DNA from: Terebella lapidaria
Taxonomy: Eukaryota; Annelida; Polychaeta; Terebellida; Terebellidae
Direction of reading: 5' to 3'
NCBI GenBank assembly: GCA_949152475.1
Contig: OX424555.1
Location: 71,315,499 to 71,379,498 of the forward strand
DNA: 64,000 bases
Part shown: piece by piece, positions 5,540 to 63,503 of the stretch
Layout of the letters: each line of letters begins with the position of its first letter
Numbering within the stretch: position 1 is the first letter of the stretch
Position numbers and translations under genes: made by a program
The notes under the pieces: model-generated
Databases searched by the model: none
What the model was told of the DNA's origin: nothing
What the model saw: the letters and a program-made list of their open reading frames with translations, nothing else

Positions 5540-6830
5540 TAAGCCGAGAAAGTTGAAGGTCAAATTCAAGGTGACCACTGAAATCGCCATATCTCTAACC
5601 TTGAAAATGGGATCAAAGGTTAAATTCTAGATCACCAAACTATTCAGCATACATCATTTCCTATGTGTTCACTATGGACCCCTAAGATGTAAATTTGATA
5701 ATAAGCGAGATATAAGCCATTTTGTAATCTGACTTTGAAAATAAAATGACTGACCTTGAAATTTAGGTCAAAGGTCAAATTCAATATCATTAAAATATTC
5801 AGAATATATCATTTCCTATATGTTCACAATTGATTCCTAAGCTGTAATGTCGATAATAAGCGAGATATTAGCCATTTTGTCCTGTTGACCTTGAAAATGA
5901 GATCAAAAGTCAAATTCAAGGTCACTAGAATATTCAGCATATATCATTTCCTATATGTTCACAATTTACTTCTAAGCTGTAAAGGTGCTAATAATCAAGA
6001 TATTGGCCATTTTGTCCTGTGACCTTGAAAATGAGGTCAAAGGTCAAATTCAAGGTCATGAGAATATTCAGCATATATCATTTCCTATATGTTCACAATT
6101 GATTCCTAAGCTGTAAAGTCGATAATAAGCGAGATATTAGCAATTTTGTCCTGTGACCTTGGAAATGAGGTCAAAGGTCAAATTCAAGGTCATGAGAATA
6201 TTCAGCATATATCATTTCCTATATGTTCACAATTGATTCCTAAGCTGTAAAGTCGATAATAAGCGAGATATTAGCCATTTTGTCATTTGACCTTGAAAAT
6301 GAGGTCAAAGGTCAAATTCAAGGTCATGAGAATTTTCAGCATATATCATTTCCTATATGTTCACAATTGATTCCTAAGCTGTAAAGTCGCTAATGAGCAA
6401 GATATTGGCCGTTTTGTCCTGTGACCTTGAAAACGAGGTCAAAGGTCAAATTCAAGGTCACGAAAATATTCAGCATATATCATTTCCTATATGTTCACAA
6501 TTGATTCCTAAACTGTAAAGTCGATAATAAGCGAGATATTAGCCATTTTGTCATGTGACCTTGAAAATGAGGTCAAAGGTCAAATTCAAGGTCACAAGAC
6601 TATTCAGCATATATCATTTCCTATATGTTCACAGCTGATTCCTAGGCTGTAAAGTCGATAATAAGCGAGATATTAGCCATTTTGTCCTGTGACCTTGAAA
6701 ATGAGGTCAAAAGTCAAATTCAAGGTCACGAGAATATTCAGCATATATCATTTCCTATATGTCCACAATTCATTCCTAGTCTCTAATTTCAATATTAAGT
6801 GAGATATTAGGCTTAATGTGTCCCATTATA
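5540..6830. repeat. 134-bp tandem array rich in AGGTCA half-sites
   Basis: About ten head-to-tail units recur every 134 bp (for example the GTGACC start at 6019, 6153 and 6287). Each unit carries TGACCTTGA, then AGGTCAAAGGTCA, then TTCAAGGTCA, followed by an AT-rich part with CATATATCATTTCC and TAAGCTGTAAAGTCG. A further unit lies at 7285-7425, after a two-copy 234-bp repeat. The central motif is a DR1 (two AGGTCA separated by one base), and the flanking motifs are inverted TCAAGGTCA sites, known as monomer sites for ERR/SF-1-type receptors. The array is non-coding. A related array lies at 60945-62320. Confidence 0.85.
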
Positions 6831-7285
6831 AAGCATAGGAGAATTTAACATGGGAAAGTCCCATTTGGGCCGAGTTTGGGCCCAAAATGGCCCACTTCGA
6901 GCGATTCAAGCGCAACGAAATTTATACATGTCACAGGGGCACATATGGGGAGTGTTATGCATCAATAAAAAAAAAAGTTACTGAACAGATTTTGAGAAAA
7001 TGGCCGCCAAAGTCCAAAATCAGGCATTTTTCGTCGAAAACGGCCGCCATTTTGAAAAAATTATAAAGCATAGGAAAATTTAACATGGGAAAGTCACATT
7101 TGGGCCGAGTTTGGGCCCAAAATGGCCCACTTCAAGCGATTCAAGCGCAACGAAATTTATACATGTCACAGGGGTACATATGAGGAGTGTTTTTCATCAA
7201 TAAGAAAAAAAAGTTACTGAACAGATTTTGAGAAAACGACCGTCGAAGTCCAAAATTGGCCATTTTTCGACGAAAACGGCCGCTC
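6826..7285 (+). repeat. Two-copy 234-bp tandem repeat
   Basis: Copies start at 6826 and 7060 with TTATAAAGCATAGG, and share TTTGGGCCGAGTTTGGGCCC and AACAGATTTTGAGAAAA. They sit between units of the 134-bp array inside the Harbinger-like element. The copies differ by scattered substitutions, so the duplication is not very recent. Pieces of similar wording (CAGATTTGAGAAAA near CCCAAAG) recur at 48035-48070, which suggests a wider repeat family. Confidence 0.75.
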
Positions 7286-7685
7286 TGACCTTGAAACCAA
7301 GGTCAGAGGTCAAATTCAAGGTCACGACAATATTCAGCATATATCATTTCCTATATGTCCACAATTGATTCCTAGTCTCTAATCTCAATATTAAGTGAGA
7401 TATTAGGCTTTAATGTGTCCCAAAATTTATAATTTTATCAAGGGTTAAAGGCTCCTATTTTGCTCCTATTCAACAATTTTCAGGAGCCAATTTGCTCATA
7501 GAAGCATATTTCAATATAACTTTACAGATTTTGTTCAGCCAATTGGCTCGTGAGGTATATTGCCTGGTAGCAAATCTGAAATGTTATGAGCCTATGGCTA
7601 CCCACAAGTGGCAATTCTGAGCCCTGATGTGCATTGATCAACGCTCATCACTCAGATTGAAACATTGTCACCAAGAATCAACGTT

Positions 7686-13814: not shown

Positions 13815-16160
13815 TTGCGTTTCACTCTACGACGCACCGTTTCCGAGACACGGCAAACAGGAAGTGCTGAGTCGGCGAAAAAAAATCGACACCAGAAGTC
13901 GTCTCGACCCTAAATACCCTCTAGGCTAGTTATTCTAGTGCCAGGAGGCTGAAATTAAACTCCGTTTCGCTCTACGACTCACCGTTTCCGAGATACAGCC
14001 AAACAGGAAGTGCCGAAAAATTTGACACCAGAAGACGTCTCGGCCCAAGATACCCCCTAGACTAGTTTGTCTAGTACCAGAAGGCCGGAATTGAGCTCCG
14101 TTTCGCTCTACGACTCACCGCATCTGAGATACGGCCAAACAGGAAGTGCAGAGTCGGCAAAAAAAAAGAATTCGACACCAGGGGCCTTCCCAAAATACCC
14201 CTAAGCCTAGTTTGTCTAGTGCCAGGAGGCCGAAATTGAGCTCTGTTTCGCTCTACGACGCACCGTTTCCGAGATACGGGCAAACAGGAAGTGCAGAGTC
14301 GGCGAAAATAAATTTGACACCAGGGGTCGTCTCAACCCAAAATACCCCCTAGACTAGTTTGTCTGGTACCAGAAGGCCGGAATTGAGTTCCATTTCGCTC
14401 TACGACGCACCATTTCCGAGATACGGCCAAAAAGGAAGTGTCGTTGGCAAAAATAAATTCGACACCAGGGGTCGTCTGGACCCAAAATACCCCTAGCCTA
14501 GTTTGTCTAGTGCCAGGAGGCCGGAATTGAGCTCCATTTCGCTCTACGACTCACCGTTTCCGAGATACGGCCAAACAGGGAGTGCCGAGTCGGCGAAAAT
14601 CAATTCGACACCAGGGGTCATCTCGACCCAAAATACCCACTAGGCTAGTTTGTCTAGCGCCAGAAGGCCGAAATTGAGCTCCGTTTCGCTCTACAATGCA
14701 CCGTTTCCGAGATACGGCCAAACAGGAAGTGTCGAGTCGGCAAAAAAAAATTCGACACCCAAAATACCCACTAGACTAGTTTGTCTAGTGCCAGAAGGCC
14801 GGAATTGAGCTCCGTTTCGCACCGTTTCCGAGATACGGCCAAACAGGAAGTGCCGAGTCGGCGAAAATCGATTCGACACCAGGGGTCGTCTCGACCCAAA
14901 ATACCCACTAGGCTAGTTTGTCTAGTGCCAGAAGGCCGGAATTGAGCTCCGTTTTGCACCGTTTCCGAGATACGGCCAAACAGGAAGTGCCGAGTCGGCA
15001 CCAGGGGTCGTCTCGACCCAAGATACCCTCCAGACTGGTATGTCTAGTGCCAGGAGGCCTAAATTGAGCTCCGTTTCGCTCTACGATGCACCGTTTCCGA
15101 GATACGGCCAAACAGGAAGTGTCGAGTCGGCAAAAAAAAATTCGACACCAGGGGTCGTCTCGTCTAGTGCCAGAAGGCCGGAATTGAGCTCCGTTTCCCT
15201 GTATGACGCACCGTTTCCGAGATACGGCCAAACAGGAAGTGCTGAGTCCGCTAAAATAAATTCGACACCAGGGGTCGCCTCGACCCAAAATGCCCCTTAG
15301 ACTAGTTTGTTTAGTGCCAGAAGGCCGGAATTGAGCTCCGTTTCGCTCTACGACGCACCGTTTCCGAGATACGGCCAAACAGGAAGTGCCGAGTCGGCGA
15401 AAAAAAATTCGACACCAGGGGTTGTCTCGACCCAAAATACCCACTAGGCTAGTTTGTCTAGTGCCAGAAGGCCGAAATTGAGCTCCGTTTCACTCTACGA
15501 CGCACTGTTTCCGAGATACGGCCAAACAGGAAGTGCCGATTCGGCGAAAACAAATTCGACACCAGGGGTCGTCTCGACCCAAGATACCCTCTAGACTGGT
15601 ATGTCTAGTGCCAGAAGGCCGAAATTGAGCTCCGTTTCGCTCCAGACTGGTATGTCTAGTGCCAGGAGGCCGAAATTGAGCTCCGTTTCGCTCTACAACG
15701 CACCGTTTCCGAGATACGGCCAAACAGGAAGTGTCGAATCGGCAAAAAAAAAATCGACACCAGGGGTCGTCTCGACCCAGGATACCCACTAGACTATTTT
15801 GTCTAGTGCCAGAAGGCCGGAATTGAGCTCCGTTTCCCTGTATGACGCACCGTTTCCGAGATACGGCCAAACAGGAAGTGCTGAGTCCGCTAAAATAAAT
15901 TCGACACCAGGGGTCGCCTCGACCCAAAATGCCCCCTAGACTAGTTTGTTTAGTGCCAGAAGGCCGGTATTGAGCTCCGTTTCGCTCTACGACGCACCGT
16001 TTCCGAGATACGGCCAAACAGGAAGTGCCGAGTCGGCGAAAAAAAATTCGACACCAGGGGTTGTCTCGACCCAAAATACCCACTAGGCTAGTTTGTCTAG
16101 TGCCAGAAGGCCGAAATTGAGCTCCGTTTCACTCTACGACGCACTGTTTCCGAGATATGC
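13815..16160. repeat. 147-bp minisatellite, about 16 units
   Basis: Units recur every 144-148 bp and carry CGTTTCCGAGATACGGCC, AACAGGAAGTGC, CGACACCAGGGG and CTAGTTTGTCTAGTGCCAG. Because unit length is often a multiple of three, several frames stay open across the array on both strands; these are not genes. From about 15170 the order of unit variants repeats with a period near 639 bp: the distinctive CCCTGTATGACG variant falls at 15197 and 15836. That indicates a recent multi-unit duplication. Confidence 0.9.
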
Positions 16161-52297: not shown

Positions 52298-52562
52298 AAT
52301 ACCATACCCAAAACAGACATGAATTTGGGAACATGTAACCCCACTCCAGAATATTCATAATCTGTATGTATTATTATAGTATATCCTCAAATAACCTCTG
52401 ATATTGTTGTAAAACTATTTTCGATATATATGGTTTACGTGACCTCATAATATTTATTAAGTGGATTTATTCCTACGTACGAAACTTGTTCATGGTAGCA
52501 TTGAAATGCATTTTTTATTGAATCCACACGAATCTATTACCACATTTCCACTGTCGGAAACC

Positions 52563-52841
52563 GACTACCGTAACGTCACGTTACGGTAGTCATGACGATG
52601 GCGCAAGGTAAACCGATTCGTTTGATTGTCTGCTGTTTTCTTGCTAAAAATAATATACTGACACGAACTATTCCACAGACATATAGTATGAGACATTTAG
52701 AATCCATAAATTGTCATGCAGAATACGCTGTAAAGGCATTTTCGGGATAAAAGCGGTTGGTAAGATTTGCTGTTGACTACCGTAACGTTTCGGTCCGACT
52801 ACCGTAACGTGACCGATCGGCGGTTTAGGACTACCGTAAGG
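52563..52841 (+). repeat. Left-end array of a 13-bp motif
   Basis: GACTACCGTAACG occurs five times: as both arms of the palindrome at 52563-52591, then as direct copies at 52775, 52797 and 52829 (the last ending AAGG). Such repeated subterminal words are usually transposase-binding sites. Confidence 0.85.
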
Positions 52842-54011
52842 TCATTACTGTGATTCGGCGAATACGCACGTGAAATTGAAAAGCAATCATTTTCATCATT
52901 ACAGAGATGGTTTTCAGATGCAGAACAAATGACAAAAATATATGACAAAAAATTATCTATATTCAAACCGTCCGCTGTAAAAGCTGCTGCGATGATCTAC
53001 GAATCAAATTGAAATTCGGATGTTTGCGAAGAGGCGGTAGGTGACGCGGGTTCGATCACCGTCACCGGCACAAAGTAGATGGAGTTTTCATCCTGGCACC
53101 GCAAAGGTTTCTCCATTCGAATGTGCTTTCCGAATTGAAAATTGTCACTCGACGGGGGATGGGGAAGACAGGCAGAATTTCCTATCATCATGGACCGTCG
53201 TTAAATAAATCAGATTATTATATTATATATTAATACTTCAACTACGAGAGCTATAACCAGACAAATGCTATAGATTCAACAAAGTCAACATGCGAAACAG
53301 GCAATCAATTCCAAATCCGAATTCCGAGCTCCTAATCCATAAACATATCAGTCAACGACAAACAAGGAACTCTTACATACAAGGTTTGTGTAATTATTGA
53401 TAAGGGGCTATATGACCTTGGAAAAAATTTCACCTCGTCATCAATTGTTGATACATTTCATATGTGCCCTGTAATTAAAGTGATATTGGCAGTAAGTTAT
53501 GGATTTTTCCATACCTTTCTGATCGAACGAAGAAAACATAACAGTTATATATATCTGCATTTGTATGCTCAAGCAGACACCCGCATCTAATCGATTTCGT
53601 TGCGAGTTTCTGGTGGAGATATTTAGAGTTTGTTCACATTGTGCTTTGTATCCCTTGATGCAGTGCGAGTCCAGCTTACTGGTATATGTTCGAGCCAATC
53701 GAACGTGAAGTAGGTCAAGTCAGAGGCAACTCTGAGTGGCGCACAAAACAAAAGAACAAAAAGCGGCTGCTAGTACTGTCATATGCCTGATTTACCCATC
53801 TGATTTTTTTTATTTTGAATCATTTATTAGAGTGACCAAGACACACACAAATTCAATAACAATATAACAATTCAATACATTTGATACCTCCAGCCACACA
53901 GGGCTTATTAGTCACTACAAAAACACGTGTATATAGACATGGTGAAGATATAAGCACAAAATTGAAAATAAATCACTACAAATATATGATATTCTATTGA
54001 TATAAAATGGA

Positions 54012-57000
54012 TTAACGGTGTTCCAATGAATCACAGAGATATTTGGCTAAATATTTTTGACATTTTTCAACAATATTTACGAACTTATCATGATCATTAT
54101 TTTCCTCAAAATTTGGCAAACTATTTTTAACACAGTTATACAATGTAAATCTGAAGGTTGCATAAGCGGGACAAGATATTACCAAATGAAATTCATCCTC
54201 AATCTCTTTAAGGTTACACACATTACATATTCTATTTTCTAAAGCGGTATTATTGTATCTGCCAGTTTCAATTTCTAATGGTAAAATTCCTAATCTAAAT
54301 TGAGCAACTATGGAACGGTTTCTTTTATTCATGTAATAATTAATGTAATCTTCTGTGCACATGTTAGTTTTAAATGACATATATGTACGTAATTTCGGTT
54401 TCTTTCTTATCGCTAATTTCCAGTTTTCCTCATTCAATTTCATAAGTTTCTCTTTGATCTCAGTCATATTACATATGTTCCTGTTTATAAATACATCATT
54501 CATGTCTAAAATTGAAAAAATTTCTTTTAGTTCGGAGCACCAATTTTTGTTACATAATTCGTAGTCATAATTTTTTCAAAATCCTTTCATCATCCATACA
54601 AACTAATTTGTTCCAATATCTCAACATTGACATAAATCTTCTATATTTACAACATAACCACCCGAAGTCACCATCCATACCAGAAATAGGAGCAAATTTA
54701 TGAACACCAAGATAATATCGCATTGATCTATTTTGTACATTGCTACTGAATGAAAATTGTTTAAAACCAATCACTTCACTTGCATAATCATGTATAGGGA
54801 TAATTGCAGCATTGTACATTTTCTCATATGTATGAAATCCAGCATCTTTTATATTTTTAAATTTGTTTATCAACCCACCAAGTGCTCTTCCAGCTGAATC
54901 ACAAAGGATTTTTGTCCCAATTTCAAAAGTTAAAAATTCATCGAAATATACACCCAGATATTTGTATTTGTCCACAACTGACAACTCCTTTTCACTAAAG
55001 AAAAAAACATTATTTGTTACACCACAACGTCTGGGGCGAAAATGAATAATATTCGACTTATCAGCATTCAATCTCAACTTCCATTTATGACACCAACTAT
55101 ACATAAAGGTTAACATTTGTTGTAAATTTTCTGCATTTTCAGCAATCAATACAATGTCATCAGCATATAACAACAAAGAAATATTTTGTTGATTACAATC
55201 TACACCAACACCAAGTGATTTAATTTCTTCAGCTAATCCATTTATAAATAACGAAAAAAGTGTCGGTGATAAATTATCACCTTGACGGACACCAGCTTTG
55301 GATGTAAACATAGTACTGTACATATTATTTACACGAACACATGATGTAGTTTTTCCATACATCGATCTTATGGATTGCAAACATCTACCATTAATGTTAT
55401 ATAATAATAACCTGTAAAACAATAAATCACGATCGATACAATCAAACGCCTTTTCCATATCAATGAATGCACACATAGTCGATAAATTTTGTTTTTGTCT
55501 ATTCCTCAGTATACTACTTAATGAAAATATGTGGTCAATACATGATCTATTTTTACGAAATCCATTTTGTTCATCTACAATGATATTATTTTTGTCTGAA
55601 AATTTTACAATACGATTATTAATCAAAGACGAATATGTTTTCGATATACAAGACAACAAGGAAATACCCCTGTAATTTAGCGGCACATAGGGATCTTTCC
55701 CAGACCCCTTGGGGATTGGGTTTATTATTACACATAACCAAGATGAGGGTAAAACACCAGTATCAAATACAGACTTGAACAGTTTATATAGGGCAAAATA
55801 CACACCAGGACATTTAATAACTTCATTTGGAATACAATCCAATCCTACTGCTTTCTTAGATTTCAGTTTCTTAATTGTCTCTACAACTTCATCATATGTT
55901 ATATCTTCATTGATATCTACAGTGCAACCAGTTCCAAACGAATTTGATTCATAATTTTGAACAAAAGCTTTTGCGTGGTCAGAAAAAGTTTCATCATATG
56001 CCGATATGTCAGGATTATACAATTTCTCAAAAGTTTTAGACCATTCATTCAAAACCATATTTGGATCACTCACAAAACCTTGCTCACATTTCACACTATT
56101 TGGAATATTTTTATGCTTCGAAGGTCCCAGGTTTTTAACATGCTCCAAAAACTTTTTCGGGTCATTTGTACACACTTTTTCCATTTCATCTATTTTATTT
56201 CTTCTGTATTGCCTTTGGGTGAACCTTAAATATTTATCGAATTTAGATCTAGCAGACACAAATCTATTTCTCATATCTAGTACATGTTTTTTCTTACAAA
56301 TCTCGTTTGCATCGCAGATACAAAGCTTCTTTCACAGACATATCTTTCCATAACAATGTAAGCTGTTCATTCCAATAAGGTTTATAATTCTTAAATTTTG
56401 TTCTAATTGATTTACCACATTGTTTATAATTGAGAAATTTGTCCATTTCTGAGAATATACAAGAACATAGTGAATTATATATTACATCTATTGAACTTTG
56501 ATTTTGAGTTTCCAACTCAAGCCTTTTAATTACAGTATTTATTTTATTGCCCCACTCGGTGTTCAACATGAAATCTTGAGGCATATTTGACAGGTCATAT
56601 TTTTTCTGAGCAGTATTGACAATCATATTCACATCAGACAAAGCAGGATTAAGTACATGGTTGGATGAACTCATTGGGCAATTTGATTTTGAGTCATTGA
56701 ACTTGGAGCTGTGTGTATCCAACAACATGTCACCGGGGCTAAAGTACATATCAACAAATACAATAGAGTGGTCTGGGGGCCGGCTCAAGTCTGATATCGT
56801 TTGTTCAAGTCCAAATTTTGCAATTAAATCTGACATAGTACATACATTGAAATTTAAAAAAAATTTCAGGTTTTCATGTTGAACACAAATATAATCTACA
56901 ACTGAACTACCTTTATTTGATATACATGTGAAATTATCATTATCAAATCTACCATTCAATATACACATATTTGTTTCTCGTAAATGTTCAATAAAATCTT

Positions 57001-57565
57001 CTCCTTGAGGGTTTTTGATATCATCAATCACAATTCTATTTTGGATCACATCGTCCACCTTTTCAATAATATCACATAAATTGCCAATTCGAGCATTCAT
57101 ATCACCACACAAAATGATGGCATCTGCCTCTGAGCTTTCTACATATACTTGACTTGATACATAAGAGAATATATCATGAGAATTTCGTCCTCTAGTTGAA
57201 TTTGAGGGAGGAATGTAACAACCAAATAACACTAAATGGCATGAATTATGTTTGTGGAATAGAGACAGTTTTATGACACTGTCTATAGAAATGTCTGTTT
57301 TAACATCATAATTCTGTACAACGTTATTTTTTACTAGAAATCCCACACCACCAGAACCTTTCCTTGCGTTTTTGTGTATATGCTTTCTATTGTTTCCAGA
57401 CCAAGTGTAATTATCTACAGTAATATTTTCACCTGGTTTCAAATGTGTCTCACATAAACATAATACTTCAATATCACAGTTTAAACAAATTTGATACCTT
57501 AGATTCTGATTATTGATGGTCCAGCCGTTGACGTTCCACGTAGCGATGCGAAGTGACTCCTTGTG
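54012..57565 (-). pseudogene. LINE ORF2: endonuclease and reverse transcriptase
   Basis: The endonuclease opens with IATWNVNGW (about 57555), earlier than any ATG, then CETHLKPGE, LCGDMNARIG, SSVVDYICVQ and PPDHSIVF, which together hold all expected catalytic residues. A one-base shift near 56292 leads to the reverse transcriptase frame (56274-54565): LNYRGISLLS, FIDMEKAFDCID, GVRQGDNLSPTLFSLFINGL and the active-site YADDIVLIAE. A second one-base shift near 54570 precedes the C-terminal part (54503-54012) with CNVC and HLVISC, a zinc-knuckle-like CCHC. The enzyme would nick target DNA and prime cDNA synthesis there. Only two frameshifts and intact catalytic motifs suggest a fairly young copy. 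Confidence 0.92.
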
Positions 57566-57580
57566 TGACTGACTGTTGTC

Positions 57581-58757
57581 CTATGCCGGATACTGGAGGT
57601 GTCGGGGAACCGGAGGTCGAGGAGGACATGCAGGAGTCCCGAAATAGGTAATGGTTGGGAGCGAGTTGGGAGAGTGGGGACGGAGAGCAGGGTTCGCGAG
57701 GTAGGGTCGTGGCATGGTACCAGTCGGAAACGGGTTGGCAGCAGGGTCGACAACTTGCCCATTGCCCTGGTTGGAGATGATACTCGGTGACGTTATCATC
57801 TGGCCTCGGTCATCCACAGGGAAACTTGAGTAAGCATCTCTGGAGCAAGGCTGGGCATCTCTAAAGCGGGACTGTACTTCCTGGTGTCGACGGGGTGGGT
57901 TCGGCGAGCTATGTCTCTGAATATCCGCATGTTCTCGTTGGTGAGGAGCAATATATTGGGTGTCATTTTTTTCCACGAGGCGACCATTTCCAGCAAACCG
58001 GAATCTTCCTTTCAACTCTGGGAGGGCATCACACACCACTTTGATGTTATTTTGGGCCACCCGTTCCTCGTGTGTTTGACTCGATCTGACGAACACTCTT
58101 TCATACTTTTTAATTTTCTTCAGTTCTTGTTTATTCCTCAGAGCTTCGATTTTCTGATTCTGGGAATTCAATTCGATTTTGAGTAATCCTGGTTTACTTA
58201 GCTCGTGTTATTTTACACCCTAGTTGCAGCCCGTCCGACACAAGTTTCTGAGCCTGGTCATGCACTGACATTCCGTCTTCAGGGATGAGCTTGGTGACTA
58301 CAAGTGTTCTACAGGGATTGAACTGGTCAGTATCACATAAGTCTTGAACAGCAGTTTCTACAGTCTCGATACGTACAGTCATTTGCTGCATTTCCTTACC
58401 TACGTCTTCGCGGAGCGATTGCACTTTGGAGCAAATTTCAAGTGAGAGGTCATGTCGGCATTCTTCGATTTTAGCTGTTAAGGTTTCTCGTAGTGTTGTC
58501 TGTTCGTTTTTTATCTGCTGACAGAGAATTGTTAGTTTCCTAACATCTCTACACAAGTTCACCATTGGATCTGTTTCATGGGCCATACGCGAAGTTTCAT
58601 CGAGCGTCGATGTATTTGAGACGGTCCCCAAGTTGAATTCGCCGCCTTCAGCCATTGTTTGTTGTTGCATAATGCCCTTTGAAAACTCGAGTCGGGTATA
58701 TATATCCAAATTCACAGATAATGCACAAATAAACGTATCCAGTAGTAATCCAAACAA
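57581..58757 (-). pseudogene. LINE ORF1 protein, one frameshift
   Basis: The first part (58757-58194, from MAEGGEFNLG or an upstream Met) has a coiled-coil-like stretch (LCQQIKNEQTTLRETLTAKI) and then an RRM-like start (TLVVTKLIPEDG). The frame breaks near 58190, and the second part (58171-57581) carries KKYERVFVRSSQTHEERVAQ and FRFAGNGRLVEK, the wording typical of LINE ORF1 nucleic-acid-binding domains, then a Pro/Arg-rich tail. ORF1p coats LINE RNA and acts as a chaperone. Its stop lies about 15 bp before the ORF2 endonuclease begins. Confidence 0.75.
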
Positions 58758-59214
58758 TCATGAACACATATAATCCAAAGAGATGTGAATCCATTCAAGT
58801 TTCACACCATAAAACTGTAAATATATCCGAATTTTCGAGAGAGCAAAAACAAAGCCACCATTTTTTCACCAGGTCACGTGATACCATCGGATGTGCGTTG
58901 GTTTGTAACCTATTTTTTCTGAGACCACAGGCATATATGTAATTGATTTGGAAAAAATAGTTTTCCTGCCAATATCACTTTAAATAGGATCATACATATA
59001 ATTATTTGCGACAGTGGGACTGCGTAAGTAGCCCTACATGAACGATATAATACTGGCAACATATACACAACCTGGCAGGTGTATAGCCACAAACGAAAAC
59101 GACATACATGTACATTCATTTCTTTTACACATAGATCTATATCAGCTCCTTACTTGTTGTGGAGAATTAACTTATAGAACAAAATAGCACATCAATGATC
59201 TGCGTGGTTTGTAA

Positions 59215-59495
59215 CGTTACGGTAGTCGGCCGTTCGCGTTACGGTAGTCACTACTCTGATATCACCTGACGTTACGGTAGTCGTCATTGTTTTTTTATCG
59301 AACAAATATCACACATACACCCAGTGCTCTGGCTACTCTAGTGAACCTCATAACTTCATACATTTTGTGGCTTCAAAATTGTTCCGATCTTAAGCTGTAT
59401 CGTACAACTTATCAGGAAAAATTCATAGGAAACAAAACGAATCGACATAGCTTCCGCCATCTCAATGACTACCGTAACGTGACGTTACGGTAGTC
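59215..59495 (-). repeat. Right-end array of the 13-bp motif
   Basis: CGTTACGGTAGTC, the complement of the left-end motif, occurs at 59215, 59237 and 59270, then as both arms of the palindrome at 59467-59495. The gap between palindrome and nearest inner copy is 184 bp here and 183 bp on the left. Confidence 0.85.
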
Positions 59496-59515
59496 GGGGT
59501 TCCGACAGTGATTTC

Positions 59516-60863: not shown

Positions 60864-61271
60864 TAATAACTGATGTCATTATCATTGGTTCATGCATTTA
60901 AAAAAACACCGGACAATCTATGTTTTATATTTTATATATTAGCCATTCTATCCAGTGACCTTTAAAATAAGGTCACTGGTCAAAATTCAAGGTTACGAGA
61001 ATATTCAGCATATATCATTTCCTATGTCCAAAATTGATTGTTAAGCTGTAAATTCAATAATAAGATATCAATAATTTTGTCGTGTGACCTTGAAAATGCA
61101 GCCAGAGGCCATATTCAAGGTCATGACAATAATCAGCTTATCTCGTTTCCAATCAATGTTCACGATTGATTCTTAAGCTGTAAAGTCGATGATAAGCGAG
61201 ATATTAGCCATTTTATGCTCTGACCTTTGAAATAAGGTCAAAGGTAACTTCATGAGAATATCAGCATTTAT

Positions 61272-61404
61272 CACTGACTGAACACAAATTCGAGACTGTG
61301 ATTGGCCAATCACAACGGTGATAAAAACTCGAATCCTTAATATCTAACTTGGCACGCGCCACCTTCGATACGATTTCAAATGTGAGTCTCGTTTTCAGTC
61401 AGTG
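61272..61404. mobile_element. 133-bp mini inverted-repeat insert
   Basis: CACTGACTGAA at 61272 is matched by TTCAGTCAGTG ending at 61404. Inside are a second inverted pair (ATTCGAG / CTCGAAT) and a perfect 18-bp palindrome, TGTGATTGGCCAATCACA (61297-61314), which is two back-to-back CCAAT boxes. It splits one unit of the 134-bp array. No coding capacity. Confidence 0.6.
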
Positions 61405-61417
61405 GTAAATTCCTTAC

Positions 61418-61502
61418 CCCATGTCTGTTCACGAAATACGGAATTATATCTACGTCTAGCTGTCCGTATTGCATGAGGCCGAATTCCGTGAACAAACATG
61501 GG
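61418..61502. repeat. Hairpin with 20-bp-plus imperfect arms
   Basis: CCCATGTCTGTTCACGAAAT pairs with GAATTCCGTGAACAAACATG followed by GG, leaving a loop of about 35 bp. It lies 13 bp after the 133-bp insert, and both may be parts of one inserted element. Confidence 0.6.
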
Positions 61503-63503
61503 ATCACTAATAATATCATTTTCATGTCCACAATTCATTCCTAAGCTGTAAAGTCGATGATAATGAGATATTAGCCATTTTGTGTCCTGGTCTTGAAATA
61601 AGGTCGAATGTCAAATTCAAAATCATGAGAATATTCAGCATGTAGCATTTCCTATATGTCCACAATTGATTCCTAAGCTGTAAAGTCGTAAAATAAACCA
61701 GATACTGACCTTGAAAATGAGGTCAAAGGTCAAATTCAAGGTCACGAAAATATTCAGCATATATCGTTTCTTATATGTTCACACAGGGGATTACTAAACT
61801 GTAAAGTCGATAAAAGCGAGATATTAGCCATTTTGTGCTCTGATCCAGAAAATGAGGTCAAATGTCAAGTTCAAGGTGATGATAATATCCAACATATACA
61901 ATTTCCTATATGTCCACAATTGATTCCTAAGCTGTAAAATCGATAATAATTGAGATATTAGCCATTTTGTCCTGTGACCTTGAAAATGAGGTCAAAGGTC
62001 AAATTCAAGGTCATGACAATAATCTGCATATATCATTTCCTATATGATCATAATTGATTGCTAAGCTGTAAAGTCGATAACAAGCGAGATATTAGCCATT
62101 TTGTCCTGTGACCTTGAAAATGAGGTCGAAGGTCAAATTCAAGGTCATCAGAATATTCAGCATATATCATTTCCTATATGTCCACAATTGATTCCTAAGC
62201 TGTAGAGTCGATAATAAGCGAGATATAAGCCATTTTGTGCTCTGACCTTGAAACTGAGGTCAGAGGTCAAATTCAAGGTCACGAGAATATTCAGCATATA
62301 TTATTTCCTATATCACGCTGGGAAAGGCGATCTCCAGAATCTGAGGTTGAACGCCGGAATTGGAGGTTGAACGTCTGAATCAGAGGAAATCACGAAAAGA
62401 AACAAAACATTGTGAGGGAAAAGCCCTCAAAAGGTACTTAAAATCGTCCGTGTCATCGATATAACAGTGTGCATCAGTTATGCGAATGATCATTGTCCCT
62501 CGGTAGCACAAAAACTCCTTAGTATATCACACAGTTATCTGACAAACCGCGGCACAGTTTTAGGTACTGAAACAGGATCTAGGCGACAACACGCATCGAA
62601 TGAATAAACCAGTTTAATTCACTAAATAACCAAATATAGTACTTGAGATTGTGCAGAATGGTTGTTTAGATGCGAAAGACTTTATATCTGACCAGATTTC
62701 CTGAATGTTTGGCGAAATTATTGAGTATTCAATGTGAAATGAAATAAGGCTGCAACTCCACGAGTATGAGGGCTCATAAAAACGGCAACACCGGAATTTA
62801 CGGAACAGAGTGACGAGTGCTGCCAAGAACACATTGTTCACAGGGTTTGATGACGTCTCTGCTTTGGTGATTTGGGGTTCATGACATACGAAATATACAA
62901 CCTTGTGGTCTTATTCTTCGCACATGCACCCAAATTCAAGATCCGTTAGATTAGTGTCAAAGAAATCTGCAAACATAACATACATGCAAGGACAAAACTG
63001 TATCTTACCTATCTACATGTACTCTTTCTATGCTTCACTTACTGCTACGTGTAGCGTTTGCCATTGTCTTCACATGTACGCAGACGAACAAGGCCAAAAT
63101 AAATATTTATTTCGTTTGTGTCCCCTTGCGCGTCGTCTCAAACGTCGAGTGTCATACTTTTTTAAATTCTTTTTTCAAAGAGTCGGCCTTATATCATTGA
63201 TTAACGGCAGATCATCCTCACAGAACCGCATAGTGGAAAACTTGTTTTCTATATATAATTCCATGCGTGCGATATAGGCTCTCTCGTTTGGAAAAATATG
63301 TGTTTATATAGTTGTTATATTTGGAAGCTGCCAAAGTGTTTTGTAAAGATTTCTTTTATATTTATTTTTGATTATTGCTATTGTTTTGGGTTATTTCATA
63401 TCACGTGTACAACTTTTTATTTGATCCAATAATTAGATTTTTTAATATTTTGTATGTTTACAGTTTCAGATAAAATATATGTCTATGTTACAAACAAACT
63501 TTT

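Follow-up and report, generated by a model that had tools for sequence, protein, structure and literature searches.

The window analysed here is a stretch of 64,000 nucleotides from Terebella lapidaria (assembly GCA_949152475.1, contig OX424555.1, positions 71,315,499 to 71,379,498 of the forward strand), and plain positions below are counted from its first letter. At 52549-59510 the window holds a nonautonomous DNA transposon with tips CACTGTCGG, flanked by a 5-bp target site duplication (TSD), ATTTC, at 52544..52548 and 59511..59515. Lengths of 1 to 11 bp were tried on these flanks, and 5 bp alone fitted. The left tip (52549..52562, plus strand) reads CACTGTCGGAAACC in this copy and CACTGTCGGAACCC in most of the copies listed, while the right tip (59496..59510), which reads CACTGTCGGAACCCC on the minus strand, is 1 base longer. 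Beside each tip lies a 29-bp palindrome, at 52563..52591 on the left, where two opposed GACTACCGTAACG motifs make it self-complementary at 28 of 29 positions, and at 59467..59495 on the right. The left terminal inverted repeat (TIR) occupies 52549..52625 of the plus strand, with an approximate inner limit, and its ungapped core pairs 52561-52623 with 59435-59497 at 87% complementarity.

Farther in, across gaps of 183 and 184 bp from the palindromes at the two ends, three more motif copies were found on each side, at 52775..52787, 52797..52809 and 52829..52841 (the last being GACTACCGTAAGG) on the plus strand and at 59215..59227, 59237..59249 and 59270..59282 on the minus strand. With up to 1 mismatch allowed, the motif occurred 10 times within the element versus once in the remaining 57 kb of the window. 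An earlier note on this DNA had claimed the tips, palindromes, three-motif arrays and ATTTC duplication, and all were found at the positions it gave; its reading that only a 5-bp duplication fits the flanks was likewise correct. The same note described the arrays as mirror-placed. This was true of the motif orientation, which is inverted between the ends, but not of the spacing, which counted from the tip is +22 and +32 bp on the left and +33 and +22 bp on the right, so that its order is the same along one strand.

On the inner side of the palindromes, at 52592-52605 and at the corresponding place on the minus strand (near 59453-59466), the majority sequence of seven copies was AAGATGGCG, from which the window copy departs by one base per side. 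This sequence resembles the YY1 core.

The 7-kb span of the window copy is misleading, because a 5.1-kb non-LTR retrotransposon is nested inside it; the transposon proper measures about 1.87 kb. The retrotransposon, on the minus strand at 53805..58897 (ends approximate), is a later insertion into the transposon, with junctions derived from comparison with copies without it, C8 and C3a, both of which match the window on either side. It contains one frame with a reverse transcriptase (54565-56331, PF00078, E 1.2e-39), one with an endonuclease (56294-57580, PF03372, E 1.5e-9) and a third with no Pfam match (57581-58207), all on the minus strand. The coding frames identified in the window copy are those of this insertion. 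Stop-to-stop frames in six other copies reached at most 98 amino acids (aa), and the copies read were noncoding apart from nested elements. The claim that the window element carries no transposase was therefore upheld, and it extends to the other copies read.

The family in the genome

The genome (761.6 Mb in 438 contigs) was searched for further ends. The exact 14-base tip CACTGTCGGAACCC was found at 203 places (109 forward and 94 reverse), compared with 2 (one on each strand) for a reversed control and approximately six expected at equal base frequencies. Allowing up to 1 mismatch, the palindrome matched on both strands at each of 185 places, and its reversed control matched nowhere. Chance origin of the tips and palindromes was ruled out by these controls, and the element proved to belong to a real transposon family of multiple copies, as the earlier note had supposed. 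From the number of exact tips, the copy number is about 100, scattered through the genome, and the aligned blocks of the copies compared were approximately 81 to 99% identical.

The ends were of two types, with 14 bases preceding the palindrome at the left tip and 15 at the right. In all, 168 ends were compiled, comprising 100 listed of 165 tip places, further exact-pattern matches and eight ends from the initial search. Of these, 112 formed 56 adjacent opposed pairs, and the other 56 were solo. This label partly reflects the exact patterns used, since by eye about 11 of the solo ends acquired an opposed partner in a later tip search. Most pairs (42 of 56) were 1.0 to 1.8 kb long, including 27 at 1.20 to 1.35 kb; 12 exceeded this length, and two, of 58 and 731 bp, fell short of it. 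Two copies at C11:33969435 and 33973038 were 99.7% identical, 3.6 kb apart and shared a left flank, and are probably a tandem duplication taking in the element.

The motif layout was read in seven copies. Measured from the left tip, motifs lay at 15, 31 (inverted), 227, 249 and 281 bp, and measured from the right tip they lay at 16, 32 (inverted), 229, 262 and 284 bp, within a few bases. The exceptions were C3a, whose left end is shifted by an insertion, and C8, in which one right-tip motif was not found at up to 2 mismatches. Intervals of 22 and 32 to 33 bp amount to approximately two and three helical turns, and the inner motifs would therefore face the same side of the helix.

For the TSD, 17 copies were examined. 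They were C8, C11b and 15 taken from the 56 pairs, namely the 58-bp copy, two typical copies, seven from among the longest and five others; C11a, the neighbor of C11b, was excluded as a duplicate of it with a missing right tip. The TSD was exactly 5 bp in 15 of the 17, and the remaining two (C5 and C3b) agreed at 4 of 5 bases, so the 5-bp duplication that the earlier note had read from one copy stands as a trait of the family. Lengths of 3, 4, 6, 7 and 8 bp were exact in none of the 17, and a length of 2 bp in three, two of which also fit 5 bp.

This result bears directly on whether the family could be EnSpm/CACTA proper. The CACT tip and the repeated subterminal motifs, arrayed in opposed orientation at the two ends, are features common to EnSpm/CACTA elements such as Spm/En, Tam1 and Tgmt*, and the CACTA-like subterminal sites noticed earlier were present as arrays at both ends. 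The TSD of 5 bp differs, however, from the 2 to 3 bp made by that group, and it tells against plain membership unless some EnSpm lineages make 5-bp TSDs. As excerpted, the reports on SmTRC1 and Tgmt* give 2-bp duplications in 7 of 14 copies (PMC1636069) and 3-bp duplications (PMC2613891), respectively. The present family also differs in that each end carries no more than five motifs, their positions are fixed, and two are joined to form the palindrome beside the tip. A Transposase_21 probe matched 5 places in the genome, none of them near a listed end by eye. Membership in EnSpm/CACTA proper is therefore regarded as very improbable. Three places with equal scores, C2:27376206, C3:9182502 and C4:38525403, each held an 849-aa open frame weakly matching Transposase_21 and are possibly a recently moved CACTA-like element.

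The insertion target leans to AT, with the pattern ANNNT. Of the 15 exact TSDs, 11 begin with A and 11 end with T (one-sided p ~6e-4 each), and G or C made up 21 of 75 TSD bases compared with 41% in the window (two-sided p = 0.026).

Two copies were unusual. The element at C2:7820588-7820645 is only 58 bp long, with its two tips on either side of a single palindrome that they share, and its 5-bp TSD is perfect. Since the palindrome reads almost alike on both strands, the two end palindromes of a full copy are also direct repeats of each other, and a deletion between them would therefore leave 14 + 29 + 15 = 58 bp, the observed length. The copy may have arisen in this way, by recombination of the two end palindromes, or it may have transposed as such; if still mobile, it would come near to a natural minimal substrate. 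The C8 copy (C8:29187907) holds in its interior an exact 63-base repeat of its own left junction (45 flank and 18 tip bases), as would be expected from repair of an excision gap by copying from a broken end, like filler DNA.

Search for an autonomous partner

The earlier note had suggested looking for a longer copy with a transposase. Five long paired copies were sampled, with 55 to 1,200 bases of each read, and no autonomous copy was seen in those bases. The middle 1.2 kb of C13:13430110 (3.9 kb) was noncoding repeat and family interior, and C14:11111499 (7.4 kb) and C9:9378096 (16 kb) had an ordinary nonautonomous interior near the left end. The middle of C1:88428614 (5.3 kb) was a 134-bp satellite; 55 bases taken at 400 bp from its left tip had no match to the family interior and matched other noncoding stretches of the window, and L043 and L045 weakly. 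C1:47494894 (8.8 kb) had the 147-bp satellite of the window near its left end and a dispersed repeat in mid-copy, with 466 first-look candidates.

Both satellites are also present in the window. The 134-bp satellite lies at 5598-7406 and 60936-62313 and also flanks a RAG-like element on C7 described below, and the 147-bp tandem array, whose unit contains AGACTAGTTTGTCTAG, occupies 13818-16157.

Transposase genes were sought throughout the genome with probes for the RAG1 family (E 0.001 and E 10), the HzTransib C terminus, Transposase_21 and the hAT dimer domain. Only the best candidates were scored, genes may be split by introns, and the listed places were compared with the family ends by eye.

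A derivation from Transib itself, in which the family would descend, as a nonautonomous form, from a Transib with an autonomous copy that is rare, has been lost or escaped the search, is suggested by the CAC tip and the TSD, 5 bp being the typical length in Transibs (PMC4411706). However, the C-terminal query of HzTransib (69 aa) gave 8 places at E <=10, all of them at places matching the RAG1 family. Seven were in RAG1-like genes (37 to 39% identity), and one was weak (E 2.2, 42% over ~43 residues). Since this query detects RAG1-like genes and nothing with a better E value, there was no sign of a Transib with an unbroken C terminus in the assembly. Such a failure is unsurprising, because a genome is reported to contain a single autonomous Transib or, at most, a few (PMC4411706). 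The AT-leaning TSDs also argue against this origin, as those of Transib, vertebrate RAG and ProtoRAG lean to GC (PMC8289069), although a GC lean is customary for Transibs rather than strictly diagnostic, and palindromic tips or subterminal arrays go unmentioned for Transib in the excerpted literature. A Transib origin is thus held only tentatively, as doubtful.

The hAT superfamily was considered as a second source. The reference entry for Kapitonov and Jurka 2007 in PMC12730594 indicates, by its title, a hAT group with 5-bp TSDs (hAT5), and an element of this type could carry subterminal repeats as some other hATs do; hAT-derived Kat1 requires subterminal repeats (excerpt of PMC4763223), and hATs may have subterminal binding sites. 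The dimer-domain probe gave 151 matches, showing that hAT genes are common in this genome. None of the matches listed, however, lay within 20 kb of the 168 compiled ends by eye (150 of 273 candidates scored). A hAT5-type element appears improbable, and the partner is more likely to come from the CACTA/Mirage/Chapaev/Transib (CMCT) assemblage than from hAT.

Resident RAG-like transposons

The RAG1 family probe gave 18 matches at 11 loci (E 0.001), and three RAG-like lineages with definable ends were recognized, with tips CACNNNGAAACG that differ from those of the present family. The first comprised five copies with both ends, on C7 (C7:27373894-27383469), C14, C9, C3 and C1, which share the TIR CACATAGAAACGT, have exact 5-bp TSDs and are apparently complete RAG-like transposons. 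Three copies were 9.4 to 9.6 kb long and two, with extra insertions, 13.0 and 13.5 kb. The C7, C14, C9 and C3 copies were mostly 98 to 99% alike over blocks of 1 to 5 kb, and the C1 copy was more distant. RAG1-like open frames reached 1,058 aa, and the C7 copy also contained a RAG2-like frame, convergent and 494 aa long, in which Pfam recognized Kelch repeats (E 3e-32) and, below the cutoff, PHD and RAG2. The near-identity of the copies suggests recent movement of this lineage.

The second and third lineages were represented by one element each, of 7,966 bp in the C1:81376235 region (tip CACGATGAAACGT, TSD CGCGG) and of 9,255 bp in the C12:27916703 region (tip CACAATGAAACGT, TSD TTGTG). Their ends were located by looking for CAC..GTG ends flanked by a 5-bp TSD; applied to the C7 region as a control, this search returned the ends of the first lineage as the sole match. 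Four further RAG1-like loci were without defined ends, and coverage at four of the 11 loci was 1.5 kb per side.

Cross-mobilization of the family by these resident RAG1L-RAG2L transposons was weighed, as they look recent and all seven elements with defined ends have exact 5-bp TSDs. Compared with CACTGTCGGAACC over 13 positions, however, the tips of the three lineages match at no more than 4, 5 and 5. Seven 20-kb stretches and smaller loci around RAG1-like genes contained neither a family tip nor a motif within 1 mismatch; looser settings gave scattered single motif matches with 2 to 3 mismatches and no array. G or C accounted for 18 of 35 bases in the RAG-like TSDs compared with 21 of 75 in those of the family (p = 0.02). 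The tips were also compared with the pattern excerpted for protostome RAG-like (RAGL) elements, in which CAC comes first and AAA stands at positions 8 to 10 (consensus CACTWMCAAACKTYKBB; PMC7204232). The resident tips agreed at 13 of 17, 11 of 16 and 12 of 16 positions, whereas the family tip agreed at 9 of 17 and has no AAA block. Mobilization by the resident RAG-like elements is accordingly considered highly unlikely.

Discussion

Taken together, the data indicate that the window element probably belongs to a nonautonomous cut-and-paste family moved in trans by an undetected transposase, which would most likely be of the CMCT assemblage. Lineages of this assemblage mostly share 5'-CA..TG-3' ends and make TSDs of 2 to 5 bp, according to excerpts of PMC12730594. 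A Transib origin would be a special case of this explanation, and the confidence placed in the two overlaps. A transposase supplied in trans would cut just outside the CAC with a 5-bp stagger. The palindrome beside the tip is a putative dimer-binding site, and the inner three-motif array a putative further binding cluster that may aid pairing of the ends, by analogy with the TNPA sites in Spm/En, where TNPA binds subterminal repeats (PMC2613891). The source of the transposase would by now have been lost, have become very rare or have diverged beyond the reach of the probes. A role for the motifs is consistent with their conservation: variable columns made up 5 of 65 motif columns compared with 50 of 235 other columns at the left end (p = 0.011) and, with the ends pooled, 13 of 130 compared with 98 of 470 (Fisher p = 0.005).

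Three observations weigh against this explanation. The features that place the family in the CMCT assemblage are just two, the tips and the TSD. At the right end the motif columns were not significantly less variable than the others (8 of 65 compared with 48 of 235, p = 0.15). Finally, none of the matches listed for the four probes placed a transposase gene near a listed end; the earlier idea of a longer, transposase-bearing copy thus gained nothing from the sampled parts of the five long copies or from the surroundings of the listed ends.

An alternative, possible though held with reserve, is a transposase lineage as yet undescribed, related to the CMCT assemblage or outside it. It would make 5-bp staggered cuts at ANNNT and recognize the ends through the dimer-binding palindrome beside the tip and the helically phased inner array, and the palindromes would allow collapse into a 58-bp minimal element keeping both tips.

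Among the other known systems compared, Chapaev and Mirage make TSDs of 4 and 2 bp, respectively. Both belong to the CA..TG group (PMC12730594, in excerpt). Ginger2 (Ginger2-Tdd) was ruled out by its tip, as its ends are TGTNR compared with CAC here. With Transib and RAG-like elements (RAGL and ProtoRAG), in which nonautonomous derivatives are also known (PMC7204232), the family shares the CAC at the very tip and the 5-bp TSD, and to this extent the Transib/RAG reading of the earlier note holds. It differs in the AT-leaning target, the palindromic tip site and the motif arrays; the resident RAG-like tips were different, and neither a Transib nor a RAG1-like partner was found. Its CACTGTC shares CAC, and only part of the rest, with the Transib/RAG heptamers CACAGTG or CACTATG (PMC8289069). 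With its TSD length and CAC of the Transib/RAG kind, its Spm/En-like arrays and its AT-type target, the family bears out the earlier view that no single known family is a clean match, and no description of the tip or the architecture was found in the open-licence literature searched.

V(D)J recombination arose from a lineage whose signature is a CAC tip with a 5-bp TSD. If a family bears this signature yet has CACTA-style ends and the opposite target bias, with no RAG or Transib partner found, the signature by itself would not suffice to assign an element to that lineage, and the family may point to a transposase not yet described.

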